Part shown: positions 14,192 to 52,721 of the stretch, piece after piece | Layout of the letters: each line of letters starts with the position of its first letter | Position numbering within the stretch: the stretch's first letter is position 1 | Assembly: GCF_003287285.1 (NCBI RefSeq) | Contig: NZ_QMIG01000028.1 | Span: 1 to 52,721, forward strand | Origin: Phytoactinopolyspora halophila | GTDB lineage: Bacteria > Actinomycetota > Actinomycetes > Jiangellales > Jiangellaceae | Reading direction: 5' to 3' | Length of the DNA stretch: 52,721 nt | Notes under the pieces: generated by a model | Database searches by the model: none | The model's input: the letters and a program-made list of their open reading frames with translations, nothing else | What the model was told of the DNA's origin: nothing | Position numbers and translations under genes: made by a program

Positions 14192-14257
14192 TTTATGGTC
14201 AGCAGAATCTGGAGGCGCGCACGGCCGCCGCATGAATCAGATCGGAGTGACAGCGGC

Positions 14258-28484: not shown

Positions 28485-28648
28485 GTTCGCGAGAACGCGG
28501 ACGCATCATAGGGTTATTCCGCCGGGTCCCACCCGCTCGCCGTGTGGAGTGCTCGTGGCGAACCGCGCCGGGCGGAGCCGGCGTGCGGGCGGCTGGTCGG
28601 CGGACGACATGTGAACGGTGACGGTATTCGAGGGGTGAGACGGTAGCG

Positions 28649-31245: not shown

Positions 31246-31472
31246 TCTGGCCGACCTCCGGAAATTCCCGCGATTCTCGGGCACGTGACAGAATCCGCGA
31301 CCAGTGACGCTAGCACCCCGTGATGGCCGAGTCCAGGTAGCCACGTTGACACGAGCGTCGTCCCCTCGGTATCAACATCCGACGGTGTGCCAAGATCGGT
31401 CCGGATGGATACGATTTGGTGGGTTTGTATGGTGATGACGGGTGCGCCGCGCCCGCGACCGTGGAGGCCGTC

Positions 31473-32297: not shown

Positions 32298-33082
32298 TGC
32301 CGATCGGCGAGGGGCTGCGCACCCAGGTCGTGCAGCTGCAAGGCTCCGAGTCCCTGTACCGGTGTCAGCTGACCGTCTTCGCCTACGACACGCCGCAGGT
32401 CGATGCCGCCTACGATGCCGCCTACGGCTGCTTGAGCTCCGCCGAGCGGGCGTATTGCGATCGGCTCAAGGTACGCAAACGAGCCCTCGAGTTCACGTTC
32501 GGGCGATACGTCGCCAAGGAAGCGGCGCGTGCCGCCGCCGACGGTGCGCTCGCGCGCGAGTCGTTCGAGATCCGGCAAGGCTTGTTCAACCAGCCGATAC
32601 TCGTGTGTCCGGACGGGAGAGACCTCGAGGTCAGCATCGCCCACAGCAACGGTGTGGCGATGGCTCTCGTCCATCCGCGAGCGTGCCCGCTGGGGATCGA
32701 TCTGGAGGTCCTGGACGGCAGGACACTTTCGACCATGACCGAGCACCTGACAGAACACGAGTCCGCGCTGATGGACCGGCATCCCGTCGCGTCGGACCGT
32801 TCCTACCTTCCTGCCGTGATCTGGACGGCGAAGGAATCGTTGTCCAAGGTCTTCAAGAGCGGTCTGCTCGTCCCCTTCGATCTGTTCGAAGTCCAGAGCA
32901 TCTCGACCCGAAGCGAGGTGATGACGTCGGCGTTCCGGAGCTTCTCGCACTACGTCGCCGCCTCCGCGCGGGTGGGTGATTTCGTCGCGAGCATCGCGTA
33001 TCCGAAGATGACTGACCTTCGCACGGAGTCCGGTGCCCCGTTTCCGTCCCTGGCGTTGCCGGGTAGCTCACAGGCCGGGTAG
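32294..33082 (+). CDS. Sfp-type 4'-phosphopantetheinyl transferase
   Basis: A 262-residue transferase that attaches phosphopantetheine from CoA to a carrier-protein serine. The signature pair is present: PLGIDLEVLDGR and WTAKESLSKVFKSGL, with the magnesium-binding Asp and Glu. FGRYVAKEAARAAA and SIAHSNGVAMALV also match the Sfp/PptT group. The ATG at 32294 overlaps the phosphoesterase stop. The five or more carrier domains of the adjacent PKS need such an enzyme, so it probably serves this cluster. Confidence 0.92.
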   Translation: MMPIGEGLRTQVVQLQGSESLYRCQLTVFAYDTPQVDAAYDAAYGCLSSAERAYCDRLKVRKRALEFTFGRYVAKEAARAAADGALARESFEIRQGLFNQPILVCPDGRDLEVSIAHSNGVAMALVHPRACPLGIDLEVLDGRTLSTMTEHLTEHESALMDRHPVASDRSYLPAVIWTAKESLSKVFKSGLLVPFDLFEVQSISTRSEVMTSAFRSFSHYVAASARVGDFVASIAYPKMTDLRTESGAPFPSLALPGSSQAG

Positions 33083-33654: not shown

Positions 33655-34659
33655 GTGACGGACGTCTTGAGTGGAAACATGCGCTCGATGACGCAGATAT
33701 CCGAAGAATCGATTTTCTTGTTCGGTGGGCAGGGATCGCAATACTTTGGTATGGCCCTCTCGCTTTATCGAGAGAATGCTGAATTCCGGCGCAGCATGGA
33801 CTGGTTGAATTCAGTGTGCCAGAGCCGCCACGGAATTTCGGTGATCGATTATATTTACGACGAACGCCGGGGTATGTCCGAGCCGTGCGACGATCTCGCG
33901 CTGTCCAATGCCGCGATCTTCATGATCGAATACGCGCTGAGTGACGTGCTGCGCAAGGATGGCGTGATACCGAGCCGGCTGATCGGATGCAGCTTGGGTG
34001 AGTTCGTCGCCATGGCTGTGGCCGGTCACATCTCGGCCGAGCGCGTCCTGGACTTTGTTGTCGAGCTGGCTCGCTCCGCGGAACGGTATCTGCCGCCCGG
34101 CGGCATGCTGGCCGTGCTCGGCGATCCCGGGCTCTACAACTCGCTCCCGGAACTGCGGGAGAACACCGAGATAGCGTCGGTAAGCCACGACCGCCACTTC
34201 ATCGTCGCTGGTGGTAGCGGTGGGCTGCGGCGTGCCGCGCAGGCGCTCGATGATCGCGACGTGATCGCCGTCATGTTGCCCGTGCGTTTCGCCTTCCATT
34301 CCTCGGCCATGGATTCGCTGCGTGATGTGGTGTCTGAAGTGGCCGATTCGATGGCATACGACGAGCCGGCGTCGACGGTCGTATCGGCGAGCACGGGCGG
34401 GGCGATCACGCGGTTCGAGCCCGTGGATTGCTGGAGAACGTTGCGGAATCCCATCGCGTTCACCGACGCGATCTCGTCCATTCCTGCGGCGGAGAGCTAT
34501 ACGTACATCGATCTGACGCCTTCGTCGACGCTGGCCACCATGATGAAGAGCAGCCATCCAGAATATGTCGCATATCCGATAATCACACCGTTCGGGAACG
34601 AGCTAGCGAACCTGGAATCCATCCGGTCGAGCTTGCCCCGAGTTTCGATGAATAATTAG
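33655..34659 (+). CDS. Trans-AT PKS acyl hydrolase (PedC-type acyltransferase homologue)
   Basis: A 334-residue acyltransferase-fold protein with FLFGGQGSQYFGM, the nucleophile Ser113 in GCSLGEF, and the base His215 in FAFHSSAMD. The Arg that holds the malonyl carboxylate in true malonyltransferases should come 25 residues after the Ser; here that position is Leu138 (VVELARSAE). The residue before the nucleophile is Cys rather than His. Both changes point to the PedC-type hydrolases that remove stalled acyl chains from carrier proteins. The GTG at 33655 follows AGGAG. It opens the PKS operon, 13 bases before the malonyl AT. Confidence 0.82.
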   Translation: MTDVLSGNMRSMTQISEESIFLFGGQGSQYFGMALSLYRENAEFRRSMDWLNSVCQSRHGISVIDYIYDERRGMSEPCDDLALSNAAIFMIEYALSDVLRKDGVIPSRLIGCSLGEFVAMAVAGHISAERVLDFVVELARSAERYLPPGGMLAVLGDPGLYNSLPELRENTEIASVSHDRHFIVAGGSGGLRRAAQALDDRDVIAVMLPVRFAFHSSAMDSLRDVVSEVADSMAYDEPASTVVSASTGGAITRFEPVDCWRTLRNPIAFTDAISSIPAAESYTYIDLTPSSTLATMMKSSHPEYVAYPIITPFGNELANLESIRSSLPRVSMNN

Positions 34660-34672
34660 GAGGTAAATAGCC

Positions 34673-35536
34673 GTGATCGGAGTACTGTTTCCCGGGCAAG
34701 GGGCGCAATTCAAGGGAATGGGAGCGGAGGAATTCGCCCGCCATCCCGAGCTGGTTGAACAGGCCAACGAGATCCTGGGCTACTCGATCGAAGAGCTGTG
34801 CACGAACGACCCGGATGGAAAGCTGGGACAGACCCAGTACACGCAGGTCGCGTTGTACGTGGTCAACGCCCTACAGTACCTGACGTGGCACGCTGACGGT
34901 AACCGGGCGGATTACCTTGCCGGGCACAGCGTGGGTGAATACGATGCGCTCTTCGCTGCCGGAGCGTTCGACTTTTCGACCGGACTGGAACTGGTCAAGC
35001 GCCGGGGCGAGCTGATGAGCAGCGTCGGCGGCGGGGGAATGGCCGCCGTGATGAGCCTGAGCGAAGACCAGGTCAGGAACGTCTTGACGAAGAACGGTCT
35101 CGAGGCGGTCGACGTCGCGAACCTGAACACCCCGCAGCAGACCGTGATCTCCGGTCGCCGCGAGGACATTGACGCCGCCGAAGAGCACTTCACGCAGGAA
35201 GGCGCGTGGTACGTGAAGTTGAACGTGAGCGGACCCTTCCACTCACGCTACATGTCCGATGCCGCCAAGGAATTCGGGGAATACATCACACAGTATTCTT
35301 TCAAGCCCCTGCAGGTGCCGGTGATCTCCAACCTGAAAGCGCGTCCGTACTCGGACGAGGAGATCGCACAGACACTGATCGACCAGATCTGCTCTCCGGT
35401 GAAGTGGTCCGAGAGTGTCCGGTACATGATGGGCAAGGGCGTCGAGACCTTCACGCAAGTCGGGCCCGGAAGGGTCGCCAAGGACATGGCGAATCAGATC
35501 ACGCGTCTTGCCGAGCCATTGGTCGTCGGAGACTGA
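34673..35536 (+). CDS. Discrete malonyl-CoA acyltransferase (trans-AT)
   Basis: A 287-residue acyltransferase with the complete malonyl set: LFPGQGAQFKGMG, nucleophile Ser86 in GHSVGEY, Arg111 in LELVKRRGELM, and catalytic His190 in SGPFHSRYM. This is the enzyme that loads malonyl units onto the AT-less modules of the downstream megasynthase in trans. The GTG at 34673 lies eight bases after AGGAGG. Together with the preceding hydrolase it forms the usual two-AT pair of trans-AT clusters. Confidence 0.93.
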   Translation: MIGVLFPGQGAQFKGMGAEEFARHPELVEQANEILGYSIEELCTNDPDGKLGQTQYTQVALYVVNALQYLTWHADGNRADYLAGHSVGEYDALFAAGAFDFSTGLELVKRRGELMSSVGGGGMAAVMSLSEDQVRNVLTKNGLEAVDVANLNTPQQTVISGRREDIDAAEEHFTQEGAWYVKLNVSGPFHSRYMSDAAKEFGEYITQYSFKPLQVPVISNLKARPYSDEEIAQTLIDQICSPVKWSESVRYMMGKGVETFTQVGPGRVAKDMANQITRLAEPLVVGD

Positions 35537-35634
35537 ATCAGCCGACGTCCGTCGACGTGACGTCGATACGACGTCGATACCAGGGGAAATGCTCATCCAC
35601 CGCCTGATGGGCTCCGTGCAGAGGAATTGAAGAG

Positions 35635-35889
35635 ATGGAAAACTTGGGGGTATTCGAGACGCTTCGGGAAGCGATCGTGGAGACGCTTCCCGAGCTCGAG
35701 CCCGCGGATATCCGCGCTGATGACACACTTCGAGATCTCGGTGCCAACTCGGTGGACCGGATGAACATCATCTCCGAGACGCTCGAGGCGCAGGACTTGA
35801 AAGTTTCGATGGTCGAGTTCGGTGAGCTGAGGACTCTGCAAGAGATCGTCGATCTGATCGAGAAGAAGCGTGCTGCGGCAGCGCAATGA
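35635..35889 (+). CDS. Donor acyl carrier protein of the beta-branching cassette
   Basis: An 84-residue stand-alone ACP. The attachment Ser39 lies in DLGANSVDRMNI. The GANS-x-DR form, in place of the common GxDS, is characteristic of AcpK-type donor ACPs that carry acetyl groups for HMG synthase. It has GAGGAATTGAAG upstream and overlaps the next gene by ATGA. It should be malonylated by the AT and decarboxylated by the following KS. Confidence 0.9.
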   Translation: MENLGVFETLREAIVETLPELEPADIRADDTLRDLGANSVDRMNIISETLEAQDLKVSMVEFGELRTLQEIVDLIEKKRAAAAQ

Positions 35890-37190
35890 GCGGTGAGGAC
35901 GATTTCCCGGACGGAAGCGGCGTCGCGATCACCGGGCTGGGAGTGCAGTGTGCCATCGGTAACGACATCGACGAGTTCACGGATGCGCTACGACGGGGAG
36001 CGTCGGGTATCTCGTACGAGCCGTCGGGGTCCCCGGAGGATGAGCTGCCGGCGGCATTGGGCGTCCGGGGCCGGATTCGACGGGCACCGGCAGCGGTCCT
36101 GGAGCGGCTGACCGAGGTAGACGCGGACGTGCTTGACCGGCTGCGTCGGCTCGTGCGCCGGGCCAGCCGGTCGAAGCAGTACTCCCTGCTCGCGGCGGTC
36201 GAGGCGTGGTCTCAGGCGGGTATACAGGCAGGGCACGACGGTTCCGAGGTGGGCGTCCTGGTCGCCGGAAGTAACCACGGGCACCAGCTGTCGTTCGAGA
36301 TGAGCCAGAAGTACCAGAAGTCGCCGTCGTTCGTCAGGCCGAGCTATGCCCACGAGTTCTGGGATACCGACGTGCTGGGCGCGGCGAGCGAGATGCTGGG
36401 CATCGTCGGCGAGGGCTCAAGCGTCGGTGGTGCGTCCGCTGCCGGGAACGTCGGACTGGTGAAGGCGTTCCAGCTCATCCGCAGCGGTGCTGCGGATGCC
36501 TGCCTGGTCATCGCGCCGATCACCGAACTGTCGATCGTCGAGATGATGGCGATGTGGAACCTCGGAGCTCTCGGCGGTAAGAGCCGTCAAGAACCGGCCG
36601 AGGAACTCAGCCGGCCGTTCGACCGGCAGCACGAGGGCTTCATTTACGGCGAAGGAGCGGCGGCGCTGGTCCTGGAGTCGTATCACCACGCGGCCACGCG
36701 GGGTGCGCGAGCGCTGGCTCGGGTGCGCGGTGGGGTGATCACGCTCGATGGCAACCATCTGACCACGCCCTCGGTGGACGGCGAGGTGCGAGTCATGAAC
36801 CGGGCCTTGCGTTCCGCCGGGATTTCGGCGGCGCAGGTCGACTACGTGAATGCGCACGCCACGTCGACACCGCTGGGAGATCAGGCGGAGGCCGAAGGCT
36901 TGGGACGAGTGTTCGGCGAGTACGGCGACCAGCCGTGGGTGAACTCGACGAAGTCGATGCTCGGCCACTGCCTGGGCTCCGCGTCGGCGCTCGAAGCGGT
37001 GGCCACGGTCCAGCAGCTCCGATACGGATTCGTGCACCCGAATGTCAACCTCAAGGAACCCATCGTCGATACGCTGCGGCTCGCTCCGGCGCACGCAGTG
37101 GACGAACCGTTGAGCTGTGCCATCAACAACGGCTTCGGGTTCGGCGGGATCAACACGTGCGTCGTGCTGGGAACTGGAGACGAAGATTGA
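35886..37190 (+). CDS. Decarboxylating ketosynthase of the beta-branching cassette (Cys to Ser)
   Basis: A 434-residue KS fold in which the nucleophile position is Ser184 (GGASAAGN) instead of Cys, while both catalytic His residues remain (His324 in NAHATSTPLGD, His361 in SMLGHCLGSAS). Such KS proteins cannot condense but decarboxylate malonyl-ACP to acetyl-ACP in beta-branching. The gene overlaps the donor ACP before it and the HMG synthase after it, which fixes the assignment. Confidence 0.92.
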   Translation: MSGEDDFPDGSGVAITGLGVQCAIGNDIDEFTDALRRGASGISYEPSGSPEDELPAALGVRGRIRRAPAAVLERLTEVDADVLDRLRRLVRRASRSKQYSLLAAVEAWSQAGIQAGHDGSEVGVLVAGSNHGHQLSFEMSQKYQKSPSFVRPSYAHEFWDTDVLGAASEMLGIVGEGSSVGGASAAGNVGLVKAFQLIRSGAADACLVIAPITELSIVEMMAMWNLGALGGKSRQEPAEELSRPFDRQHEGFIYGEGAAALVLESYHHAATRGARALARVRGGVITLDGNHLTTPSVDGEVRVMNRALRSAGISAAQVDYVNAHATSTPLGDQAEAEGLGRVFGEYGDQPWVNSTKSMLGHCLGSASALEAVATVQQLRYGFVHPNVNLKEPIVDTLRLAPAHAVDEPLSCAINNGFGFGGINTCVVLGTGDED

Positions 37191-38446
37191 GCGCGGTCGG
37201 AATAGAAGCCATGAACTTCTACGGTGGTACGGCCTATCTGGATGTCGCGGAGCTGGCCGAGCACCGCAACTTGGAGACGCAGCGCTTCGAGAACCTGTTG
37301 ATGCACGCGAAGACCGTGGCGCTGCCCTACGAGGACCCGATCTCGCTCGGAGTCAATGCGGCAAAACCGATCGTCGATTCCCTGTCCGACGCCGACCGGG
37401 ACCGGATCGAACTGCTCGTGACGTGCACTGAGTCAGGCATAGATTTCGGGAAATCCATCAGTACCTATGTTCACGACTATCTCGGGCTGAACAGGAATTG
37501 CCGGCTCTTCGAGGTCAAGAACGCGTGCTACTCGGGGACGGCCGGGTTCCAGATGGCGGTGAACTTCATCCTGGCCCAGGTCTCACCTGGCGCCAAGGCG
37601 CTCGTCGTGGCGACCGACGTGTCCCGGTTCCACGTGGCCGATGCGGGCGAAGCGCTGTCCGAGGACTGGTCGTTCGCCGAGCCGAGCGGCGGTGCCGGAG
37701 CGGCGGCCCTGCTGGTCAGCGACAAGCCGGAGGTCTACCAGGTCGATGTCGGAGCCAATGGCTACTACGGCTACGAGGTCATGGACACCTGCCGGCCCAT
37801 TCCCGACAGCGAGGCGGGCAACGCGGACCTGTCCTTGATGTCCTACCTCGACTGCTGCTACGAGACCTTCGCCGAATACCAGCGACGCGTTCCCGCGGCG
37901 GACTACCGCGAGTCGTTCGACTACCTCGCCTTTCACGTTCCCTTCGGGGGAATGGTGAAGGGTGCGCACCGAAAGATGATGCGCAGGCTCTACCGTGCGG
38001 CGCCACAGGAGATCGAGGACGACTTCGAGCGCCGGGTGGGACCGGGCCTGGCCCATTGCCAGAACGTCGGCAACGTCATGGGTGCCACGGTGCTGCTCGC
38101 GCTTCTCAGCACGATCGACAACGGAGTCTTCGAGAAGCCGAAGCGTATCGGTTGCTTCTCCTACGGATCCGGGTGTTGCTCCGAGTTCCACAGCGGGGTC
38201 GTCACCCCGGGCGGACACGAGAAGCTGCGGCAGATGGACGTCCCGGGGCATCTGAAGCGGCGCCGGAAGATGAGCCTCGAACAGTACGACGCCCTTCTCG
38301 TGCATAACGAGGCCGTTCGTTTCGGTACCCGGAAGGTCGATCTGGACCTCGACCCGTTCGCCGATTTCGTCCACGACATCCAAGGGGCGGGTGTCTTGAT
38401 TCTGCGCAGGATCGACGAGTTCCACCGGGAGTACGAGTGGCTGTAA
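37187..38446 (+). CDS. HMG-CoA synthase-like enzyme of the beta-branching cassette
   Basis: A 419-residue HMGS homologue that adds the acetyl carbanion to the beta-keto group of an ACP-bound chain. Catalytic residues are visible: Glu82 (CTESGIDFGKS), nucleophile Cys114 (NACYSGTAGFQ) and His250 (FHVPFGGMVKGAH). I start it at TTG 37187, overlapping the KS stop, because the family N-terminus reads VGIEAMNFYGGTAYLDV. The much longer open frame upstream is only a shadow of the KS gene. Confidence 0.93.
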   Translation: MSAVGIEAMNFYGGTAYLDVAELAEHRNLETQRFENLLMHAKTVALPYEDPISLGVNAAKPIVDSLSDADRDRIELLVTCTESGIDFGKSISTYVHDYLGLNRNCRLFEVKNACYSGTAGFQMAVNFILAQVSPGAKALVVATDVSRFHVADAGEALSEDWSFAEPSGGAGAAALLVSDKPEVYQVDVGANGYYGYEVMDTCRPIPDSEAGNADLSLMSYLDCCYETFAEYQRRVPAADYRESFDYLAFHVPFGGMVKGAHRKMMRRLYRAAPQEIEDDFERRVGPGLAHCQNVGNVMGATVLLALLSTIDNGVFEKPKRIGCFSYGSGCCSEFHSGVVTPGGHEKLRQMDVPGHLKRRRKMSLEQYDALLVHNEAVRFGTRKVDLDLDPFADFVHDIQGAGVLILRRIDEFHREYEWL

Positions 38447-39222
38447 GCACCGAAACCATCCGCGTCACGTTCGAGGGTGGCGTGTGCTGGATACGGTTCG
38501 ACCGTCCGGAGGCCAAGAACACGATCACGCCGGAACTCATCGCCGAGCTGACGCACGCTCTCGCGTCGTGCGAGGGCTCGGCAAGCATCGTCGTGCTCGA
38601 AGGAAGCCCCGAGGTGTTCTGCTTCGGTGCCGATTTCGAGAGTGTCAGCAGTGGAGCCCGCGCGCACCAGGCGCACGATCAGAATCAGGTCAGCGATCTC
38701 TACGACCTGTGGCTTCGCATGGCGAACGGTCCGTACGTCGTGGTGTCGCACGTACGCGGACAGGCCAACGCGGGCGGGGTGGGATTCGTCGCGGCCAGCG
38801 ACGTGGTCGTCGCGGACGAGTCCGCCGTGTTCAGCCTGTCGGAGCTGCTGTTCGGGCTGTTCCCCGCCATGGTGCTCCCGTTCCTGTCGCGCAAGATCGG
38901 GCGGCAGAAGGCGCACTACATGACCTTGATGACCAAGCCCGTCCCAGTCGCGCAGGCGGCGGAGTGGGGACTGGTCGATGCGTACGGGAAGAACAGCGAC
39001 AACGTGCTGCGCCGGCATCTGTCGCGGCTCACCAAGATCCCCGCCGAGGCGATTCACCGATACAAGCGGTACATGGCCGAACTCGACACCCTCGTGCACG
39101 ACAGCAGGGACGCAGCGATAGCGGCCAATCTCGAGATCTTTTCCGACAGCGCCAACCTGGCGCGTGTCTCCCGGTTCGTCGAGGACGGCATCTATCCATG
39201 GGAGGCATTGCCGAATGACTGA
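38437..39222 (+). CDS. Enoyl-CoA hydratase homologue ECH1 (dehydratase)
   Basis: A 261-residue crotonase-fold protein. The oxyanion-hole segments are VFCFGADFES and VRGQANAGGVGFVAASDVVVADESAVFSLSELLFGLFPAMVLPFL, matching the PksH-like ECH1 group that dehydrates the HMG-type intermediate. It begins with GTG inside the end of the HMGS gene and overlaps the next ECH gene. Assignment as ECH1 rather than ECH2 rests on order and on the SELLFGLFP segment. Confidence 0.88.
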   Translation: MAVSTETIRVTFEGGVCWIRFDRPEAKNTITPELIAELTHALASCEGSASIVVLEGSPEVFCFGADFESVSSGARAHQAHDQNQVSDLYDLWLRMANGPYVVVSHVRGQANAGGVGFVAASDVVVADESAVFSLSELLFGLFPAMVLPFLSRKIGRQKAHYMTLMTKPVPVAQAAEWGLVDAYGKNSDNVLRRHLSRLTKIPAEAIHRYKRYMAELDTLVHDSRDAAIAANLEIFSDSANLARVSRFVEDGIYPWEALPND

Positions 39223-39979
39223 GCCGGTGGTGCAGCTGGAATCCCCGGCGCCCGGAGTGGCGCTGATCGTGATGCAGGACAAGGACAACAAGAACACGTT
39301 CACTCCCGAGCTGGTGTCGGGCCTCGCCCAGGCTTTCCAGGAGGTTTCCGACGACGAGAGCTACCGCGCGGTGGTGCTGACCGGGTTCGGGAACTACTTC
39401 GCGTCGGGCGGGACCCAGCAGGATCTGATCGCGATCCAGGAGGGTCACGCGGCCTTCACATCGGACGACGGCGGCAGCGGAGCAGGCACGTACAGCATCC
39501 CGCTGGACTGCAGGATTCCGGTGGTGGCGGCGATGCAGGGACACGGCATCGGCGGCGGGCTGTGCCTGGGCCTCTTCTGCGATTTCGTCATCATGTCCGA
39601 GGAGAGCGTGTACACGGCGAGTTTCATGAAGTACGGCTTCACACCGGGTTTCGGCGCGACGCTCGTGCTGCCGGCCAAGCTCGGAACGGTCCTCGCCGAA
39701 GAGTTCTTGATTACCGCCCGCACGTTCCGGGGATCGGAGCTGGCCAAACGGGGTTGTCCGTACGAGGTGATGCCGCGGCGCGACGTGCTGGACCGCGCCG
39801 TGGAGCTGGCGACACTCATCGCGGAGAAACCTCGCCTGTCGTTGGTCACCCTGAAAGATCATCTGGTGGCGGACCTGAGGAATCGGTTGCCAGGCGTCAT
39901 CGAAGAGGAGCTTCGCATGCACGATGTGACATTTCATCAGCCAGAAGTGCGTGAGCGAATTCTCTCCCTCTACGAGTGA
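39215..39979 (+). CDS. Enoyl-CoA hydratase homologue ECH2 (decarboxylase)
   Basis: A 254-residue crotonase-fold protein of the PksI-like ECH2 type, which decarboxylates the glutaconyl intermediate to leave a beta-methyl or exomethylene branch. Key segments are FGNYFASGGTQQDL, QGHGIGGGLCLGLFCDFVIMSEES and TASFMKYGFTPGFGATLVLPAKLG. The ATG at 39215 overlaps the end of ECH1. It completes the five-protein cassette and is followed after 96 bases by the megasynthase. Confidence 0.9.
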   Translation: MTEPVVQLESPAPGVALIVMQDKDNKNTFTPELVSGLAQAFQEVSDDESYRAVVLTGFGNYFASGGTQQDLIAIQEGHAAFTSDDGGSGAGTYSIPLDCRIPVVAAMQGHGIGGGLCLGLFCDFVIMSEESVYTASFMKYGFTPGFGATLVLPAKLGTVLAEEFLITARTFRGSELAKRGCPYEVMPRRDVLDRAVELATLIAEKPRLSLVTLKDHLVADLRNRLPGVIEEELRMHDVTFHQPEVRERILSLYE

Positions 39980-40075
39980 GAGCTGATCGGAACAAGGGAC
40001 TCGAGGTCGGGGCGAGACATGCGCCGAGGTGGACGACGGCCAGGCCGGATAGGACGACGGACGAGGGGACGAGAC

Positions 40076-46000: not shown

Positions 46001-49000
46001 ACGGAGCACGCGGACGTGCTCGCCACCTTCTACGTGGGCGGGCCGGATCCGGGCATCGACGACGAGCAGCGTGCGGTGGCCGTATCTCCACACGAGGCGG
46101 CAGATCCCGCTCCTGTGGTGGGAGATCCCGCTCCCGTGGCGGCAGATCCCGCTCCCGTGGCGGCACGCTCGCCCGTCCGTGCTGCGGGCCGGTCCGATGA
46201 CGTGCCAGAACCCATCGCCATCATCGGTATGAGCGGGCGGTTTCCGGACGCGCGCACCGTCGACGAGCTGTGGGCCATCCTGCGCGACGGGCGCGAGGCC
46301 GTCCGGGACATCCCCGAGGATCGCTTCCCCGGCTACGGCGGCGCCTGGCGCTGCGGCCTGGTGCCCGGCGTGAGCGAGTTCGATCCGCTCTTCTTCGAGA
46401 TCACCCCGGCCGACGCGCGCGCGATGGATCCCCGGCAGCGATTACTCCTGCAGGAATCGTGGAACGCGCTGGAAGACGCCGGATATGGCGCGGACAAGAT
46501 CGAAAGCCAGACCGTCGGAATGTTCGTCGGTGTCGAATCCGGGAACTACGCGACCTTGCTGGACGAGCCCGGGAAGGTTACCTCGAATCACGAAGGTGTC
46601 CTGGCTGCGCGCCTGGCGTACTTCCTGAATCTCGGCGGGCCGGCCATGGCGATCAACACGGCCTGCTCGTCGGGCCTGGTAGCCGCGCACGAGGCATGCT
46701 GGAGCTTGCGCAACGGCGAATGCGACACCGCACTCGCCGCGGGCGTCAACCTGATGACCACCTCGGACAGCTTCGTCGCGGCCGACGAGGCGGGGATGCT
46801 CTCGCCGGACGGCCGGTGCTACGCCTTCGACCAGCGGGCCAACGGGATGGTGCCCGGTGAGGCCGTCGCCGTCGTCGCGCTCAAACGCCTCTCCGACGCC
46901 GAAGCGGACCGGGACCGGATCCTGGGGGTGATCCGGGGAAGCGGCCTGAATTACGACGGCAAGACCAACGGCATCACCGCGCCGAGCAGCCAGTCACAGA
47001 CCGACCTGATACGCGGTATCCACGATCGGTATCGTATCGATCCCGCCGCGATCGACTGCGTGTTCACCCACGGCACGGGCACGCGGCTCGGCGACCCGAT
47101 CGAGATCAACGCACTCTGGCGGGCCTTCGACGGGCGCACCGCAGAGAGGGGAAGCTGCGCGCTCGTCACCACCAAACCGAACGTGGGACACGCGCTGGCC
47201 GCCTCGGGCCTCGTGAGTTTGATCGGCCTCGTTCAGGCGCTGCGCCACCAGACCATTCCGGCCAGCCTCTACTGCGAGCATCCCAGCGACTACGTCGACT
47301 GGGATACCAGCCCGTTCTACGTGAACACCTCCAGGAACACCTGGCCACGGACGTCGTCGCGGGGCCGGATCGGTGCGGTGAGCGCGTTCGGCATCAGCGG
47401 CACCAACGCCCACATGATCGTCGAGGAGTACGCGGCAGAACCCGCGGCGCCACCCGTCGGGCACCCGGCATCTCACCTGCTGGTGCTGTCGGCCCGTACG
47501 CCCGAAGAGCTGGACCAGCTGAGAACGCAGATAAGTGATCATCTGCGTTCCGAAGCGAGCGCTGGCGTGGACTTGACGCGGGTCAGCTACACCCTGCTCA
47601 CTGGCCGGCACCATCACCGGCACCGCTGTGCCATCGTCGTCCGGGACGTGGACGAAGCGCTGGACGTGTGGTCCCAGTCTGGACGGGCAGCTCGTCCGGA
47701 CCAGATGTTCACCGGGACCGTGCCGCGCGAGTTCCAGCCGCAGGAGATGTTGCAGGACTATGCCGTCGGCCTCCTGTCTCGGGCTCGCGAGCGGCATGGT
47801 GACGGTGCCCAGCAGGTCTTGCTGGCGCTGGCCGACCTGTACTGCCAGGGCTACGACCTTCCCTGGGCGTCCCTGTTCGGCGAGCCATCACCCGTCCCGG
47901 TCAGCCTGCCAACCTATCCCTTTGCCCGGGAACACCACTGGGCATCGGGTCCGGCCAGCCGTGGCGGCGCGGACGGCGAGCCGGCCGCACGTGCCGGAAT
48001 CGTGCACCCGCTGCTGCACGAGAACACCTCGGATCTGACCGAGCAGCGGTTCACCTCGACGTTCTCCCCCGAGACGGCCTTCGTTCAGGATCACGACGCG
48101 TGGGGCGCTGGCGTGGTGCCCTGGGCAGTGCAGCTGGAAATGGCCCGGGCCGCCGTGACGCTCTCGGCCGCGGGCGATGAACGGACCGGCCGGCGGTTGC
48201 GTGACGTGGTGTGGAGCGGCCCGGTCCGGGTGGGCGAGCCACCCACACCGGTGAACATCGCCCTGTACCCGGCTTCGAACGAGGCGATCGAGTTCGAGAT
48301 CTACCGCGAATCCGGGGATGCCGAGGCCGGACGAGACGTGCTTGGCCAGGGCGTTGCCGAGACTCACGCCAGCCGGCACGGCACGGTCGATCTGGAGCAG
48401 GTTCGGGCGGCGTGTGGGGTGCGGAGCATCGGTGCGGATCGCCCGGACGGTCGCGAGCTTGGCCCGTGGGGGATCGGCGAGGTGCACGTCGGCGAAGCGC
48501 AGCTGCTCGCCGAGGTGCGGCTTGCGGACGAGGCAGAGCCGGGGCCGGCATGCGTGATCTCGCCGCTGCACGCGGAGGCGGGACTGCGCGCCGCGGCGCT
48601 GCTCGTGACGGAGGACCCCGCCGCGGCCGCCCGGCTGGTGCCGGCCGGCGTACGCGAGGTGGTGATCCCGCCGGCATCCGAGCCGTCTGGTTCCTCCGAG
48701 CCGTCTCATTCCCCCGATCCGGCCGGGCCGTCCGAGCCACCGCAGCCATCTCGACCATTCGGGCGGCCGGCGTGGGCCGTGGCGCGTGATGCCGGGCAGG
48801 GATGCGCGGACGTGGATCTGGTGGACGCCCAGGGGCGAGCCTGCCTGCAGCTGCGGGGTATCACCTGGCGGGAGGCCGAACCCGGCGTGGATGGCGCCTC
48901 CGACGATACCGGCCTCCTCATGGCCCGGCCGGTGTTCGTGGAGCAGCCGGTGAACGAGCCGGGCTCGGCGGCGACGAACGGAGCCTTCGAGCGCGGCGAC

Positions 49001-51976
49001 CGCCTGGTGTTGCTGGGTGGGCTGGATGAGGCGCTGACCGAAGCCGTCCGGAGCGAGCTTCCGGCGCGGAGCATCGTCCTCGCCGGCGGGGACGGGTCCA
49101 TCGGTGATCGTTTCGAACGTGCGGCGCTGGGCGTGTTCGGCACCGTACAGGAAATACTTCGCGACAGCCCGCGGACGGACGTGCTGATACAGCTGGTCGT
49201 TCCGAGTGGCGGCGAGAATCGGGTGCTTTCCGGACTGGCTGCCATGCTCGAATCGGTCCGGTTGGAGAATCCGAAGGTCCGGGCCCAGCTCATCGAGGTC
49301 GATCCGCGCGAGGCCGCCTCCCGAACCGTCGACATCCTGGAGCGTGAGGCCACGCAGGCGCACGAGCGCCGGGTCCGATACGTGGAAGGGCGGCGCTACG
49401 CCGGCCGGTGGGAGACGGTTCCCGAGCTGGACGATCCGGCCGGCACACCGTGGAAGGACGGCGGTATCTACCTCTTGACGGGCGGGGTCGGGATCGCCCC
49501 GGCCGTCGGCGCGGAGATCGCGGAGCGAGCCGGGCGGGTGACACTGGTCTTCGCCGGGCGTTCCCCGGCCGACGACGAGCGCCTGGCCGTGTATCGGAAC
49601 GTGGGCGGCCCGGACACGAAGGTGGAATACCGGCAGGCCGACATCACCCGTGCTGACGACGTCCGCGCTCTCGTCGACGGAATCCTTCGAGACTTCGGGA
49701 CGCTGGACGGCATCGTGCACACCGCTGGTGTGATCCGGGACGGCTTCGCGATCCGCAAGTCGGCGGAGTCGGTCGGGGAGGTGCTGGCGCCCAAGGTCAC
49801 CGGCCTCACGCTGCTCGACGAAGCCACCAGCGAGCTCGAGCTGGATCTGTTCGTCTTGTGCTCGTCGATCGCGGGGGCGTTCGGGAACGTCGGCCAGCTC
49901 GACTATGCGGCGGCGAACGCATTCCTGGACGCGTACGCCTCGTACCGCGACGAGCTGGTTCGGGCGGGTCGCCGGCACGGGCGAACGCTGTCCGTCAACT
50001 GGCCGTTGTGGCGAGCCGGAGGGATGCGGATCGATTCCGCGTCCGAGCAGAGCATGAGGGACGACACCGGCATGATCCCGATGCGGACGTCGACAGCGAT
50101 CCGCGCGCTGCGCCAGGCGCTGGCTTCGGGCCGGGCACAGGTCATGGTGATGGAAGGCGACGTGGCGCGGATGCGGGCCTACCTGTCCGGGCGGGAGGCC
50201 GGGACAGGTAGGCCCGCATCCGCGGACGGTGCACGCCGGCAGCCGGCGAATTCGCCCGGGCTGGAGGACGCGCTGCGGCAGCGCCTGGTGGGGTTGTTCG
50301 CCGAGGCCACCGGGATGAGCGAGGGCCAGATCGACCCGGACGAACCGCTGGAGAGCTACGGCATCGACTCGTACCTGATCGCCAAGCTCAATCACATGCT
50401 GTCCGGCCCGTTCAGCTCGCTACCGAAAACGGTCTTCTTCGAGCACCGCACCCTGGCGTCGTTGTCGGCATATGTGGCCGAGGAGTTCCCCGAGGAGAGT
50501 CAGCGCTGGGTGGAACCCGAACGGCCTGCCGTGCCGGAGACTGCGGACGATTCGCCCGTGGCTGCGCGCGGGGCACCGGCGCTCACGTCCCTGCGCCGCA
50601 CGATCGATCGCCGGTCCGGTGATGTGGCGCGGGATCGCCAGGTCGACGAGCCCATCGCGATCATCGGCATGAGCGGACGGTTCCCGCGAGCGCGCACCGT
50701 CGACGAGTTCTGGGACAACCTCAGAGCAGGAAATGACTGCGTCACCGAGATTCCCGGTGATCGCTGGCCGCTGGATGATTTCTACACCGAAGACGTGGAG
50801 GAAGCCATCGAGTCGCGCCGGAGCTATTCGAAGTGGGGCGGCTTCCTGGACGACTTCGCCGACTTCGACCCGTTCTTCTTCAAGATGTCGCCGCGCGAGG
50901 CGCTCGAGATGGACCCGCAGGAACGGCTCTTCCTCGAGGAGTGCTGGAAGACGTTCGAGGACGCGGCCTACACCAGAACGCGCATCGCGCGTCAGCACCA
51001 GGGCAAGGTGGGCGTCTTCGCCGGGATCACGCGGACGGGCTTCGAGCTTTACGGCCCCGACCTGTGGCGCCAGGGACGTGCGAGTCATCTCAGTACGAAC
51101 TTCAGTTCGGTCGCCAACCGCCTGTCCTACGTGTTCGACCTGAACGGGCCGAGCCTGCCTATCGACACCATGTGCTCCTCGTCACTGTCTGCCGTCCACG
51201 AGGCGTGTGAGCACCTGCGCAGGGGCGACTGTGAGATGGCGCTGGCGGGTGGCGTCAACATCTACACCCATCCCGCGACCTACGTCGATTTCTGCAAGAT
51301 GCGGATGCTGTCGCCCGACGGGGAATGCCGGAGTTTCGGCGCGAACGCGAACGGAATCGTGCCCGGCGAGGGCGTGGTCGGCCTCCTGTTGAAGCCCCTG
51401 TCGAGGGCCGTGGCCGACGGCGACCACATCTACGCGACCATCCGGGGCAGCAGCATCAACCACGACGGAAAGACGAACGGGTACACGGTCCCCAACCCGA
51501 CGGCGCAACGTGACGTGATCCGGCAGGCCCTCGATCGGGCCGGTGTCGAGGCGCGGACGGTGAGCTACATCGAGGCGCACGGCACCGGGACCGAGCTGGG
51601 CGACCCGATAGAGATCGCCGGTCTCACGCACGCGTTCCGGCACGACACCACCGACCGGCAATTCTGCGCCATCGGTTCGGCGAAGTCGAACATCGGCCAT
51701 CTCGAGGGAGCGGCCGGTATCGCGGGAGTAGTGAAGATCATCTTGCAGCTCAGGCACGGGCAACTGGCGCCATCCCTGCACGCGAAGGAACTCAACCCGA
51801 ATATCGACTTCGACAACAGCCCGTTCTATGTCCAGCGGCAACTGGCCGACTGGTCCCGGCCGGTGATGAGACGTCATGCAAGCGTGTCGACGCTTCCCAG
51901 GATCGCCGGCGTTTCGTCGTTCGGAGCAGGTGGGGCGAACGCCCACGTCGTGATCGAGGAGTACGACCCCGCATGA
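40076..51976 (+). CDS. Trans-AT polyketide synthase: AL-ACP-KS-KR-ACP-KS-DH-KR-ACP-KS
   Basis: A 3966-residue megasynthase with no AT domain. Approximate domains by residue follow. Acyl-ligase 18-578: TSGST at 187, Lys565 in SPIGKILRK, FAAL-like GAPNFAFDYLC. ACP1: Ser674. KS1 741-1175: Cys912, His1047, His1089. Post-KS linker to about 1345. KR1: GGCGGLG at 1623, Tyr1764. ACP2: Ser1938. KS2 2047-2455: Cys2197, THGTGT. Linker, then DH 2642-2940: HxxxGxxxxP intact from His2673, but the usual Asp is Glu2834. KR2: unusual GGVGIAP at 3136, Tyr3277. ACP3: Ser3432. KS3 3527-3966: Cys3700. The ATG at 40076 is preferred to 40019, whose extra 19 residues are Arg-rich. The AL loads a starter acid. Chain extension relies on the discrete AT. 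Confidence 0.93.
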   Translation: MDDAPAPEPSVRTLADLPERYPADRHLVFREDVGTQASLSGDQLRRRARQLGAALQDRLEPHAKVLLFLPDALDYICGLAGCFYANEVAVPMMADVTDDPDDVVKRLRTLAGSADARCVVTTAEVADRLQDEPELATLTVLDIHDIAGVAGADGSSSGTADAEAEEANSASTLRFPAADDPAMFLFTSGSTAEPKGVMMTHHAFVEQLRLTVDLWQARQDSVVVSWLPLSHNFGLSVGALVPLLVGLDSVILPASSFVKRPELWLRTIDEYGATHTGAPNFAFDYLCDHVSVDELASDGVSLASLTEVLCAGELIREETYRRFVTTFGAIGMSPSAFCPNYGMTEAGAFVTDPPTAEPVFRTVDLAELEQGRAVPPGDGGEGKVVASVGEPSPGVDLRIVDPQRHVECAPGEVGELWVKTPGAFSGYYKNESATREVLSAALEHGAGGYLRTGDLGFVEDGRVFIVGREKELIIVRGENHYPVDIEATITATMSGESRPVTVFGCEIDDEEQVVAIQEADPSTSEEECRRLLESAVVAISEKHRVRCFEIALVAPGSIARSPIGKILRKRTRTAYVDGELPIFYSYRDGEFASRGASQGSAAAAGSSQGRHGSDEPESGARESDEPEPDELEAVPAAPRGVVDTLVSEVFGPVLGRSSESLAASRRFAELGLDSVDYVQLARRIEDVFGISFGPSMLFKHKTIEELAAFLASTAPAGQVRAPTVSSSVPAHAEVPEAPQGIAVVGVSCRFPEATDVESFWQNLVAEKDCITSIENERPEIIEAYRRHYGDGMDSFPRYSGFVDDVADFDADFFGISPLEAQSMDPQQRKVLEMSWRAIEDAGYGPSQLGGQNVGVFVGVHNVDYSELVSLEPGVVDVYGAYLDSGLHTSLVANRVSRWFDFHGPSEIINTACSSSLIAIHHAIQSIRAGASSTALVAGVNVLLSPRPYRVSMRAGMLSGGGRCRTFDAAADGFVRSEGYAAVLLKPLEQAKADGDTIYGVIKSSAVNHDGRSNSLRAPNLTAQKELIKSAYLDSGLPLETVGYIEAHGTGTALGDPIEVQALQEAFAEIEPNLPERFCGLGSVKANIGHLESAAGLAGLIKVLLGLRHGTLPGLAHFQNLNPHISLQGSPFYVVERTREWNRHVDENGNESPRRAGISSFGFGGANGHVVVEEHIDPRERRAVRHSARRSTRPVPILLSAKTADALTGRARELSAFVRERSVSLDDVAYTLQVGRDEMARRVAFLVGSTEELCESLDRFVRGDDPAEGTFQPRPWQNSELLSMFSDAEMQEAIEKWIARGRYERLLELWVNGLDLDGRVLGGEGNPCRIPLPTYPFARERHWLSPAPASDAAPVAPAAPAAVPDTGGQRNAGHEPGELMLFEEVWEDEPLADATADVRTVICLLSSPEHQAAFTEQLRAADPRAMPVFVSKNGRGMDQGEGNDGKDRNDGKDGTGPVIAVDPDDVESFVTALQTIADRYGRPDAVVYLWAFEDPAELHNYTNIVHLLHAMARTSLGAQRLVLSAQPASELDRCYVESWIGFERSLRQAIPDLRAAAICPMDVGTNPAEDLRAWLPTLTSELRADRAGSVLYRDGRRQVSALREVSAPAAGDTIRRGGTYLITGGCGGLGFLFARHLASTANVNLILTGRSALDERQREQLSELEALGSRVLHIQADVSDETAMRSGLERARATFGPVHGVVHAAGVDARGTVVDRTAQAFDELLHPKISGTLVLDELLKDDPLDFSCYFSSVAAVVGDFGSCAYAAGNRFQNAYARYREERGYPGRSIAINWPLWASGGMNLASEDSTKLYLKSSGQRALESTEGVDVFDRLLPGGPRQCLVMSGDPERIRRFLRTGPAGDATRHPVHSPGSAPERIGPTAEPVRAVQPGRAVEPELDTGSLQARVRADLKEKVSALLRIPRERIDPGENLADFGFDSVSLTDLAGELSSHFGIAITPALFFDCPTLETLSRHYATEHADVLATFYVGGPDPGIDDEQRAVAVSPHEAADPAPVVGDPAPVAADPAPVAARSPVRAAGRSDDVPEPIAIIGMSGRFPDARTVDELWAILRDGREAVRDIPEDRFPGYGGAWRCGLVPGVSEFDPLFFEITPADARAMDPRQRLLLQESWNALEDAGYGADKIESQTVGMFVGVESGNYATLLDEPGKVTSNHEGVLAARLAYFLNLGGPAMAINTACSSGLVAAHEACWSLRNGECDTALAAGVNLMTTSDSFVAADEAGMLSPDGRCYAFDQRANGMVPGEAVAVVALKRLSDAEADRDRILGVIRGSGLNYDGKTNGITAPSSQSQTDLIRGIHDRYRIDPAAIDCVFTHGTGTRLGDPIEINALWRAFDGRTAERGSCALVTTKPNVGHALAASGLVSLIGLVQALRHQTIPASLYCEHPSDYVDWDTSPFYVNTSRNTWPRTSSRGRIGAVSAFGISGTNAHMIVEEYAAEPAAPPVGHPASHLLVLSARTPEELDQLRTQISDHLRSEASAGVDLTRVSYTLLTGRHHHRHRCAIVVRDVDEALDVWSQSGRAARPDQMFTGTVPREFQPQEMLQDYAVGLLSRARERHGDGAQQVLLALADLYCQGYDLPWASLFGEPSPVPVSLPTYPFAREHHWASGPASRGGADGEPAARAGIVHPLLHENTSDLTEQRFTSTFSPETAFVQDHDAWGAGVVPWAVQLEMARAAVTLSAAGDERTGRRLRDVVWSGPVRVGEPPTPVNIALYPASNEAIEFEIYRESGDAEAGRDVLGQGVAETHASRHGTVDLEQVRAACGVRSIGADRPDGRELGPWGIGEVHVGEAQLLAEVRLADEAEPGPACVISPLHAEAGLRAAALLVTEDPAAAARLVPAGVREVVIPPASEPSGSSEPSHSPDPAGPSEPPQPSRPFGRPAWAVARDAGQGCADVDLVDAQGRACLQLRGITWREAEPGVDGASDDTGLLMARPVFVEQPVNEPGSAATNGAFERGDRLVLLGGLDEALTEAVRSELPARSIVLAGGDGSIGDRFERAALGVFGTVQEILRDSPRTDVLIQLVVPSGGENRVLSGLAAMLESVRLENPKVRAQLIEVDPREAASRTVDILEREATQAHERRVRYVEGRRYAGRWETVPELDDPAGTPWKDGGIYLLTGGVGIAPAVGAEIAERAGRVTLVFAGRSPADDERLAVYRNVGGPDTKVEYRQADITRADDVRALVDGILRDFGTLDGIVHTAGVIRDGFAIRKSAESVGEVLAPKVTGLTLLDEATSELELDLFVLCSSIAGAFGNVGQLDYAAANAFLDAYASYRDELVRAGRRHGRTLSVNWPLWRAGGMRIDSASEQSMRDDTGMIPMRTSTAIRALRQALASGRAQVMVMEGDVARMRAYLSGREAGTGRPASADGARRQPANSPGLEDALRQRLVGLFAEATGMSEGQIDPDEPLESYGIDSYLIAKLNHMLSGPFSSLPKTVFFEHRTLASLSAYVAEEFPEESQRWVEPERPAVPETADDSPVAARGAPALTSLRRTIDRRSGDVARDRQVDEPIAIIGMSGRFPRARTVDEFWDNLRAGNDCVTEIPGDRWPLDDFYTEDVEEAIESRRSYSKWGGFLDDFADFDPFFFKMSPREALEMDPQERLFLEECWKTFEDAAYTRTRIARQHQGKVGVFAGITRTGFELYGPDLWRQGRASHLSTNFSSVANRLSYVFDLNGPSLPIDTMCSSSLSAVHEACEHLRRGDCEMALAGGVNIYTHPATYVDFCKMRMLSPDGECRSFGANANGIVPGEGVVGLLLKPLSRAVADGDHIYATIRGSSINHDGKTNGYTVPNPTAQRDVIRQALDRAGVEARTVSYIEAHGTGTELGDPIEIAGLTHAFRHDTTDRQFCAIGSAKSNIGHLEGAAGIAGVVKIILQLRHGQLAPSLHAKELNPNIDFDNSPFYVQRQLADWSRPVMRRHASVSTLPRIAGVSSFGAGGANAHVVIEEYDPA
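44411..44455. repeat. Inverted repeat inside the PKS gene (KS1-KR1 region)
   Basis: GCAATGACGGGA (44415-44426) is the exact complement of 44440-44451, and three further pairs (44411-44413 with 44453-44455) extend it past one mismatch. It encodes part of a hydrophilic NDGKDRNDGKDG stretch in the non-catalytic half of KR1. Confidence 0.6.
46103..46165 (+). repeat. Tandem 21-base repeat in the ACP2-KS2 linker
   Basis: Three in-frame copies encode DPAPVVG, DPAPVAA and DPAPVAA, a Pro/Ala-rich flexible linker just before KS2. The copies differ by a few bases, mostly at third positions. Confidence 0.75.
50166..50224. repeat. Perfect 23-bp inverted repeat inside the PKS gene (KR2-ACP3 linker)
   Basis: Bases 50166-50188 are the exact reverse complement of 50202-50224, with a 13-base loop. 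The arms begin CGCGGATGCGGG on one side and end CCCGCATCCGCG on the other. It encodes the end of KR2 (ARMRAYLSG) and then linker residues TGRPASADG, in frame. Confidence 0.85.
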
Positions 51977-52104
51977 ACACGGTCCCGGAGCCGGCGCCGA
52001 GCCGGCAGCACGCCATACGGGTCGCCCGCCCTTACGGACGGGTGATCGTCCCGGTGGACGCTCCGGATGTTTGTCTCTGCACGTTTCGTCAAGCAAGGAA
52101 ATAG
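51973..52104 (+). CDS. Small 43-residue ORF between two PKS genes
   Basis: The ATG overlaps the stop of the megasynthase (ATGA), and the frame runs 43 codons to TAG at 52102. The next PKS gene starts seven bases later in the same frame. The sequence (MNTVPEPAPSRQHAIRVARP at the start) has no family resemblance. It may be a coupled leader peptide, the former N-terminus of the next PKS cut off by an amber codon, or chance. No independent ribosome site is obvious. Confidence 0.35.
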   Translation: MNTVPEPAPSRQHAIRVARPYGRVIVPVDAPDVCLCTFRQARK

Positions 52105-52110
52105 ACAGAT

Positions 52111-52721
52111 ATGACACGGCACCAGCACGACGGATACCCGGCCAGCATCCACGCCGACGATCGTCCGGTCATGATCGTCTTGTCCGCGCACGATCACGAC
52201 CGGCTCGAGGCCCAGGCACGTGAGCTGCGCGAAGCGCTTGACAGGCGCGGCGTCACGGACGAACACCTGGCCGACATCGCCTACACCCTGCAAATCGGCC
52301 GGGAGGAGATGGAATACCGGCTGGGTGTACTCGCCGGCTCCGTCGACGAGCTGAAAGACAAGCTCGCGCACGCCTTCGACGACGGCGCTCGGGCACCGGA
52401 GGTGTATCTGGGGCATGGCCGTGGAGTCGAGGCCGAGCTCGACGGCACGAGTGTGTCCGACCAGATGGGACTGGTGACCCAGCTCGTCGCGTCGCGCGAC
52501 TACGGCCGGGTGCTGGAGCTGTGGACGAAGGGCATGCGGATCGACTGGCACGCCCTGTACAGCAGCCCGAAGCCGGGCACCGTCAGCCTGCCCGCGTATC
52601 CGTTCTCGGGCGAGCGGTACTGGGCACCGGACGAGGCCGGATTGGTTTCCGGCGGGGATGGTGTGTCGGTGTCTGGTGGTGTGGGGGTTTCTGAGGGGGT
52701 TTCTGGTGTGGGTGTTTCTGG
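52111..52721 (+). CDS. Trans-AT PKS, second megasynthase, N-terminal part (cut by window end)
   Basis: Starts at ATG 52111 after AAGGAAA and stays open to the window edge (203 codons). It opens with the linker that normally follows a trans-AT KS: VMIVLSAHDHDRLEAQARELREAL, LADIAYTLQIGREEMEYRLGVLAGS, VLELWTKGMRIDWHALY and LPAYPFSGERYW. The matching KS is the last domain of the preceding protein, so the module is split right after the KS. After the linker a Gly/Val/Ser-rich low-complexity segment begins (about 52650 on). The next catalytic domain lies beyond the window. Confidence 0.88.
   Translation, partial: MTRHQHDGYPASIHADDRPVMIVLSAHDHDRLEAQARELREALDRRGVTDEHLADIAYTLQIGREEMEYRLGVLAGSVDELKDKLAHAFDDGARAPEVYLGHGRGVEAELDGTSVSDQMGLVTQLVASRDYGRVLELWTKGMRIDWHALYSSPKPGTVSLPAYPFSGERYWAPDEAGLVSGGDGVSVSGGVGVSEGVSGVGVS

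Follow-up and report, generated by a model that had tools for sequence, protein, structure and literature searches.

A trans-AT polyketide synthase in Phytoactinopolyspora halophila whose modules 3-9 probably build a marinomycin-like salicylate half

The beta-branching operon and the two megasynthases

In the present study, we analysed a 52,721-nucleotide stretch of DNA from Phytoactinopolyspora halophila (family Jiangellaceae; NCBI RefSeq assembly GCF_003287285.1, contig NZ_QMIG01000028.1), hereafter the window, which carries part of a trans-acyltransferase (trans-AT) type I polyketide synthase (PKS) cluster. The window makes up contig C19 in full, one of the 77 contigs of a 5.04-Mb genome, and the cluster is broken off at the contig end. 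We consider it likely that this PKS is split over contigs C19 and C31 and that its modules 3-9 make a methyl-tetraenyl salicylate half like that of marinomycin and SIA7248.

A first-pass annotation of the window had named an acyl hydrolase (AH), a malonyl acyltransferase (AT), an acyl carrier protein (ACP), an altered ketosynthase (KS0), an HMG synthase (HMGS), two ECH enzymes (ECH1 and ECH2) and an AT-less megasynthase in one tight operon, and all of these parts were found where it had placed them (Table 1). Neighbouring genes from ACP through ECH2 share 4 to about 34 bases. The beta-branching cassette is complete, as claimed, with the donor ACP, KS0 with its Cys replaced, HMGS, ECH1 and ECH2 all present, and domain searches gave the same order for megasynthase 1, namely AL-ACP-KS-KR-ACP-KS-DH-KR-ACP-KS (AL, acyl-AMP ligase; KS, ketosynthase; KR, ketoreductase; DH, dehydratase). 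The trans-AT call is borne out by the free-standing malonyl AT and by the fact that neither megasynthase 1 nor megasynthase 2 has a Pfam AT match; it applies to the sequence read, and the section of the next PKS protein inside the assembly gap lies outside that reading. The RhiE-like post-KS linker of the trans-AT type, PF22336, was observed at nine places, three on C19 and six on C31. After PksD, the solved structure closest to AH is CurL (93 bits); GCSL stands where GHSL is expected, and the position of the malonate-binding Arg is occupied by Leu (Met in the Streptomyces buecherae protein compared below). The absence of this Arg is described as diagnostic of an acyl hydrolase (PMC11775670). 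The Ser of KS0 aligns to the catalytic Cys of FabF and of KS4 of the same cluster. KS0 (435 bits, nearest cut-off 445) and HMGS (226 bits, nearest cut-off 360) score under NCBIfam cut-offs and pass those of Pfam.

A search of the whole genome revealed KS matches at 15 places: nine are modular KS and one is KS0, two lie as a pair on C33, and C59, C69 and C12 have one each. Three of the modular KS lie on C19, which were the only ones in view of the first-pass annotation, and six on C31; all nine keep the Cys and the His of HGTGT. Contig C31 (28,707 bp) carries, on its minus strand, the tail of an ACP protein, megasynthase 2, a terminal protein ending in a thioesterase (TE), and an ABC ATPase and permease. 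The AT remnant of the terminal protein scores 26.6 bits (cut-off 32.7), with Ser changed to Arg and a large deletion. Because the ACP protein is broken and the other contigs contain no modular KS, C31 is very probably the continuation of the C19 cluster. The two adjacent KS genes of C33 (C33:7153-9134) possibly represent a type II PKS KSalpha/KSbeta pair.

The PKS protein that begins at 52111 would then end in the ACP tail found at the end of C31. In the cluster of S. buecherae AC541, the module ahead of KS08 has three terminal ACPs, each with a Trp six residues after the Ser. A Trp flag of this type is the mark of beta-branching acceptor ACPs (PMC12560621), the six-residue spacing being taken from the sequences and not from that paper. 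These triple ACPs can be aligned with the ACP tail of C31, the docking stretch at its C-terminus included. In a comparison of 214 ACPs, with near-duplicate loci kept in, 19 of the 20 ACPs that match the 31-residue tail best have the flag, versus 74 of the 214 overall, and the nine module ACPs of the cluster itself rank 66-190; the Trp position of the tail itself falls in the gap. Moreover, in all five clusters where the upstream protein is in view (S. buecherae, L049, L058, L068 and L079), the KS of the KS4 clade opens a protein located next after one with tandem ACPs; in L013, L071 and L089 the upstream protein was out of view. The break between C19 and C31 would be explicable by near-identity of such tandem ACPs.

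Table 1. Features of the cluster and its left flank (window coordinates unless C31 is given)
Feature	Position	Strand	Evidence or remark
Chorismate pyruvate-lyase-like gene (Rv2949c-like)	29486..30010	-	Pfam PF01947 33.1 bits, cut-off 22
Response regulator with Trans_reg_C, possible regulator	30568..31344	-	Pfam Response_reg, Trans_reg_C; true start perhaps internal
Metallophosphoesterase, overlaps PPTase gene	31416..32297	+	Pfam PF00149
Phosphopantetheinyl transferase (PPTase)	32294..33082	+	Pfam ACPS 51 bits; listed start 31964 probably too early
Trans acyl hydrolase (PksD-like)	33655..34659	+	8avz 220 bits; GCSL motif; malonate Arg to Leu
Trans malonyl acyltransferase	34673..35536	+	NCBIfam TIGR00128 (fabD) 315 bits, cut-off 261
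Donor ACP, LGANSVDR	35635..35889	+	Pfam PF00550; NCBIfam PRK07117 68.8 bits, under cut-off 79
Decarboxylative KS0, Cys to Ser	35886..37190	+	alignment with FabF and own KS4
HMG synthase of beta-branching	37157..38446	+	Pfam HMG_CoA_synt N and C; up to 70% to other cassettes
ECH1 dehydratase	38437..39222	+	NCBIfam PRK07112 371 bits, cut-off 250
ECH2 decarboxylase	39218..39979	+	NCBIfam PRK07110 348 bits, cut-off 215
Megasynthase 1, 3985 aa: AL-ACP / KS1-KR-ACP / KS2-DH(degenerate)-KR-ACP / KS3	40019..51976	+	domain search
AL starter domain, FAAL-like	40079..41878	+	PDB 7r7g 280 bits; Pfam
Loading ACP	41990..42199	+	domain search
KS1	42239..43591	+	domain search
KR of module 1	44927..45472	+	domain search
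ACP of module 1	45779..45991	+	domain search
KS2	46154..47425	+	domain search; clade with five S. buecherae KS
DH of module 2, degenerate	47957..48697	+	Asp to Glu, Gln to Arg, no YGP
KR of module 2	49466..50023	+	domain search
ACP of module 2	50261..50470	+	domain search
KS3, KS of putative beta-branch module	50600..51958	+	domain search
Start of next PKS protein, post-KS linker	52111..52719	+	Pfam PF22336 72.5 bits; leaves contig in low-complexity stretch
Megasynthase 2, 6998 residues	C31:28432-7436	-	KS4-DH-KR-ACP / KS5-DH-KR-ACP / KS6-DH-KR-ACP / KS7-ACP / KS8-ACP-KR
Terminal protein	C31 about 7406-2622	-	KS9, weak AT, DH, ACP, TE (AT, TE by Pfam)

Collinearity with the Streptomyces buecherae cluster

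An HMGS scan of named genomes gave 79 loci from the best 80 of 194 relatives, three of them Streptomyces, and several findings point to the cluster of S. buecherae AC541, of which 94 kb containing 13 KS were examined. First, among the 125 KS of the scanned loci, KS8 and KS9 are closest to S. buecherae AC541 (67% and 62% identity, runners-up 55% and 52%), and a KS followed by ACP-KR occurs in one of the 125 other KS contexts, which is that of S. buecherae. Second, in a KS tree of 82 rows (9 own, 13 of S. buecherae and 60 of the 125; a quick method with SH-aLRT only), the sister pairs KS4/KS08 (96), KS6/KS10 (98), KS8/KS12 (100) and KS9/KS13 (97), all starred in the tree, and KS5/KS09 (80, unstarred) were recovered, with 62-68% identity between these ordered partners, and KS2 falls in one clade with S. 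buecherae KS02, 03, 04, 06 and 07 (100, starred). Third, six reciprocal-best KS pairs (KS2, 4, 5, 6, 8 and 9) are collinear with S. buecherae; 14 other clusters gave three such pairs at most, a weak control, these being pieces of three or four KS. Fourth, the ends of the two lines are alike: the KS-ACP-KR end shows 47% identity over 95% and the DH-ACP-TE stretch 42% over 99%, the terminal DH in both clusters is without the usual His and has the common signature FPELxDNSGVxHxGYYLEM, and the Ser-to-Arg change of the terminal AT is also present in S. buecherae. Thus, the block from the beta-branch module to the AjuH-like terminal module is present in the same order as in S. buecherae AC541, KS7 being no sister there. 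The cassette proteins are 56 (AH), 53 (AT), 38 (ACP), 61 (KS0), 68 (HMGS), 55 (ECH1) and 63% (ECH2) identical to those of S. buecherae, and no AL match was found in the 94-kb region.

The first-pass annotation had recognised no named pathway in the domain order and had proposed a KS phylogeny as a check; a previously described cluster sharing both the order of domains and the flanking genes was to count as a refutation. Its reading survives for the AL-start front half, which matched no named line found, and is not supported for modules 4-9 on C31, which are collinear with the marinomycin-type cluster of S. buecherae; a known cluster of that description was found for the back half only, and in the KS phylogeny KS4, 5, 6, 8 and 9 were paired with S. 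buecherae and KS1, KS3 and KS7 were not. It is improbable that the line makes a wholly unrelated new trans-AT product and that the likeness to S. buecherae reflects just general KS homology: the unmatched front half, the three KS without an orthologue and the HMGS of the window, which in a tree of 84 rows (quick method) forms a branch without a supported sister and is not with Streptomyces, would fit such a product, but five ordered KS sister pairs, the unusual terminal architecture, and the common docking stretch and ACP tail would not. A decayed or silent cluster is very unlikely. The module-2 DH may be inactive, because it has Glu in place of Asp, Arg in place of Gln and no YGP motif, and the terminal AT is vestigial without its Ser; however, the frames read open, the nine KS retain their catalytic Cys and His, the Ser-to-Arg change of the AT occurs in S. 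buecherae as well, and an inactive DH would merely leave a hydroxyl.

The step from S. buecherae to marinomycin depends on a sister strain. Vind et al. studied Streptomyces ID71268, a strain with a genome that resembles that of AC541 from end to end, found in it compounds matching marinomycins, and tentatively assigned these to its region 29a. This region has 13 modules, mostly trans-AT, the last being a KS-AT-DH-TE module akin to AjuH, and also encodes enzymes of beta-branching (PMC10127220). Since the genomes are near-identical and the make-up matches, the AC541 cluster appears to be the counterpart of region 29a. Abraham et al. proved the marinomycin cluster of Marinispora by knockout and complementation of the HMGS, where loss of marJ stops marinomycin, obtained marinomycin B in S. 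lividans from this cluster, compared it with SIA7248, and ascribed the C15 methyl to an HMGS beta-branch (PMC10813093).

Several points weigh against the assignment of modules 3-9 to a marinomycin-like half. The KS tree does not pair KS7 with S. buecherae KS11 and leaves KS1 and KS3 without a partner, their best S. buecherae identities being 46% and 55%. A longer collinear match might exist elsewhere, the 14 controls being pieces of so few KS, and identities of 55-68% leave room for altered chemistry. The published module count also fits AC541 imperfectly: region 29a is given six KS-DH-KR-ACP and six KS-ACP modules (PMC10127220), whereas in our scan of AC541 five KS had both DH and KR (KS04, 08, 09 and 10, and KS01, divided between two proteins) and the ACP of KS12 was followed by a KR, and the terminal AT, counted as a domain in that paper, is without its catalytic Ser. 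Furthermore, the marinomycin link was drawn through S. buecherae AC541 and the sister-strain paper, not through record OL688631, and the assembly gap takes in both the Trp of the beta-branch ACP and the central part of module 3 and may hide more modules. KS3 has its best match, 68%, in trans-AT beta-branching clusters of Paenibacillus tianmuensis and P. tyrfis (L050 and L055).

Proposed assembly line and starter unit

Herein, we propose an assembly line deduced from the domain content. The AL would adenylate a carboxylic acid and load it onto the first ACP, and modules 1 and 2 would each extend the chain with KR reduction. Module 3 (KS3, linker and ACP, partly in the gap) is predicted to retain a beta-keto group, at which the cassette would introduce a methyl branch: KS0 would decarboxylate malonyl-ACP, HMGS would perform the aldol step, and ECH1 and ECH2 would dehydrate and decarboxylate. 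Modules 4-6 (KS-DH-KR-ACP) would add three double bonds, resulting in a methyl-tetraene; module 7 (KS-ACP) would leave a keto group at C7, module 8 (KS-ACP-KR) a hydroxyl at C5, and module 9 (KS-vestigial AT-DH-like-ACP-TE) a keto group at C3, carbon numbers being our own count back from the carboxyl in marinomycin numbering. A keto group at C3, a hydroxyl at C5 and a keto group at C7 are the pattern of 6-methylsalicylate synthase. Attack of C2 on C7 with loss of water would then give a 6-substituted salicylate, a C2-C7 closure having been proposed for marinomycin (PMC10127220). The DH-like domain and the TE are predicted to close the ring, with release as an ester or lactone; the loss of the His and the common signature fit a terminal DH that closes or aromatises the ring, and the TE product may be a lactone or macrodiolide. 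A salicylate-conjugated tetraene would be expected to absorb near 359 nm, as given for the marinomycins (PMC10127220).

On the same count, modules 6, 5 and 4 would correspond to C8=C9, C10=C11 and C12=C13, and module 3 would place the methyl at C15, the same position as the methyl of marinomycin. Modules 2 and 1 would determine the functions at C17 and C19, with the starter side chain on C19. At C17, the degenerate residues of the module-2 DH argue for a hydroxyl, and the DTMCSSS motif of KS3, which is the same as in KS5, KS6 and KS7, each after a DH-KR module, argues for a double bond.

As to the starter, the same line might be primed with 4-hydroxybenzoate, supplied by the lyase-like gene and loaded by the AL, so that the product would have an aryl and a salicylate end; we regard this as a real possibility with the odds somewhat against it. 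The lyase-like protein is above its Pfam cut-off, matches PDB 2nwi (a hypothetical protein; E 7e-8), and has Arg and Glu positions in common with two distant homologues. Among 22 Jiangellaceae genomes of six genera (the order sample is the same 22), its gene was found at E 0.001 in one, the cluster-bearing one. Its position and rarity suggest that it is part of the cluster. There is also a precedent, in which Rv2949c makes p-hydroxybenzoate, FadD22 activates it and Pks15/1 extends it (PMC7205293). Elansolid, a trans-AT product primed with 4-hydroxybenzoate, did not appear in the papers listed by a search for it and is not drawn on here. On the other hand, the AL is FAAL-like: it scores 280 bits with a PKS ligase versus 62 bits at most with natural benzoate-CoA ligases (a malonyl-CoA synthetase/benzoate ligase chimera scores 96 bits), and its best NCBIfam matches are FAALs, all under cut-offs. 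Moreover, the lyase gene is divergently oriented at 3.6 kb from the operon, its protein has no match in the S. buecherae genome at E 0.001 and none in NCBIfam, and the single-sequence structure prediction (pLDDT 33) was unusable. A natural hybrid, combining a marinomycin-type back half with a new AL front primed by 4-hydroxybenzoate and giving a short polyene with an aromatic group at both ends, is put forward as a tentative idea, which we judge rather unlikely as a whole.

The left flank was also compared with relatives. The exoIII gene (28649-29476) is present in 22 of the 22 family genomes; an open reading frame antisense to it (28514-29446, minus strand) was dropped. In five relatives, the surroundings of exoIII were inspected to about 8 kb either way (the L111 piece being 9.8 kb in total), and the genes for the lyase-like protein, the regulator, the phosphoesterase and the PPTase were not found there. 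Apart from exoIII itself, the matches were limited to an ABC pair, in L113, and a short-chain dehydrogenase/reductase, weak at 33%, in L110. Because they are absent near exoIII in these relatives, the four genes may have arrived with the cluster, and the absence of the lyase-like gene there speaks for a 4-hydroxybenzoate start. The overlapping metallophosphoesterase and PPTase genes (31416-33082) resemble the mycobacterial pptH-pptT pair. Further left, an ABC transporter pair (14195-16830) has a counterpart in one relative, at about 5 kb from exoIII, an old synteny trace left of the cluster.

Rarity and comparison with known systems

The first-pass annotation had remarked that trans-AT systems are less common in actinomycetes than in bacilli or proteobacteria. 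In the samples searched, the HMGS was found in one of the 22 family genomes and in four of 393 sampled genomes of the class (E 1e-80), namely its own genome and three others, with 64% identity in one of these and 44-48% in the remaining two. The terminal DH-ACP-TE stretch was observed in one of 396 sampled genomes of the phylum (E 1e-40), its own, and a plasmid search with the terminal protein gave 156 records, none covering 80% and all below 60% identity. When the same plasmid collection was searched with the 16S gene of the genome, the eight rows ranked highest were actinomycete records at 85-86%, and two records with pieces at 90-95% fell outside these eight. Among the titles and abstract starts listed from one open-access library (subscription journals and preprints being outside the scope), none described a trans-AT cluster from Jiangellaceae. 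Such clusters seem to be rare in this family. Three HMGS-like copies at 44-48% (L097, L098 and L099, in genomes G244 and G249) form long deep branches in the HMGS tree. A KS-DH-ACP protein of Gammaproteobacteria bacterium HyVt-540 (L074) shows 27% identity over 99% from DH to TE, with HMGS, AH and AT matches nearby; it lacks the searched DH signature and is possibly a third relative of the salicylate-forming end.

These results are of interest for several reasons. Marinomycin A is active against methicillin-resistant Staphylococcus aureus (MRSA) and vancomycin-resistant Enterococcus faecium (VREF) (PMC10813093), and comparison with a shorter relative that keeps the polyene-salicylate half but begins differently would reveal the part responsible for this activity. 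The cluster would also be a case in nature of a trans-AT line with its front exchanged close to the beta-branch module. In addition, it would supply a second, diverged version of the end that forms the salicylate (KS-ACP, KS-ACP-KR, KS-dead AT-DH-ACP-TE), whose account in PMC10127220 is a proposal. Finally, it places such a line in a family in which one of 22 genomes has the HMGS.

Among known systems, the bacillaene-type operons of Bacillus (pks/bae) resemble the front of the cluster by position, with AH, AT, ACP, KS0, HMGS, ECH1 and ECH2 directly before an AL-starting megasynthase. A bacillaene-type line derived from Bacillota is nevertheless highly improbable. The arrangement of L022 (B. 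atrophaeus; AT, AH, ACP, KS0, HMGS, ECH1, ECH2, then AL, by position), a similar cassette position in Paenibacillus, AL identities of 36-39% to four Paenibacillus loci and top HMGS matches in Bacillota (70%) favour such an origin, but gene order may be common without the same product. In a bacillaene-type PKS, AL-ACP is followed by a nonribosomal peptide synthetase module; here KS1 stands directly after the loading ACP, 2.2 kb past the AL start, whereas the best KS match in those loci lies about 5 kb past it, and the later modules are unlike, modules 4-9 matching Streptomyces.

The Rv2949c-FadD22-Pks15/1 system (PMC7205293) is similar in that chorismate-derived 4-hydroxybenzoate is possibly ligase-activated and then PKS-extended, and differs in that the AL here is FAAL-like; FadD22 is likened by description, not by sequence. 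The terminal KS-AT-DH-TE module of ajudazol AjuH, tied to an aromatic ring according to PMC10127220, is likewise similar by description only.

The closest likeness is that to marinomycin and SIA7248 (Marinispora CNQ-140), which have the HMGS cassette in common with the present cluster, and to the S. buecherae relative, with which it has in the same order a beta-branch module (Trp-flagged ACPs in S. buecherae), three KS-DH-KR-ACP modules, a KS without KR, KS-ACP-KR, and the KS-AT(no Ser)-DH-ACP-TE end. In contrast, nine modular KS were found here, the gap being unclosed, versus 13, an AL-ACP starter stands in place of acetate or lactate, and two KR modules take the place of the polyol modules. 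The cassette here is one operon upstream of the PKS, whereas in S. buecherae the cassette genes flank the PKS at either end and occupy both strands, and the chorismate-lyase-like gene and adjacent ABC transporter genes are present here. Because both the 13 modules and the acetate or lactate start are lacking, the cluster is a variant of the marinomycin kind rather than a member. The line looks shorter than that of marinomycin, with another start, and it is not without kin, since its back half, C31 included, is of the marinomycin kind.

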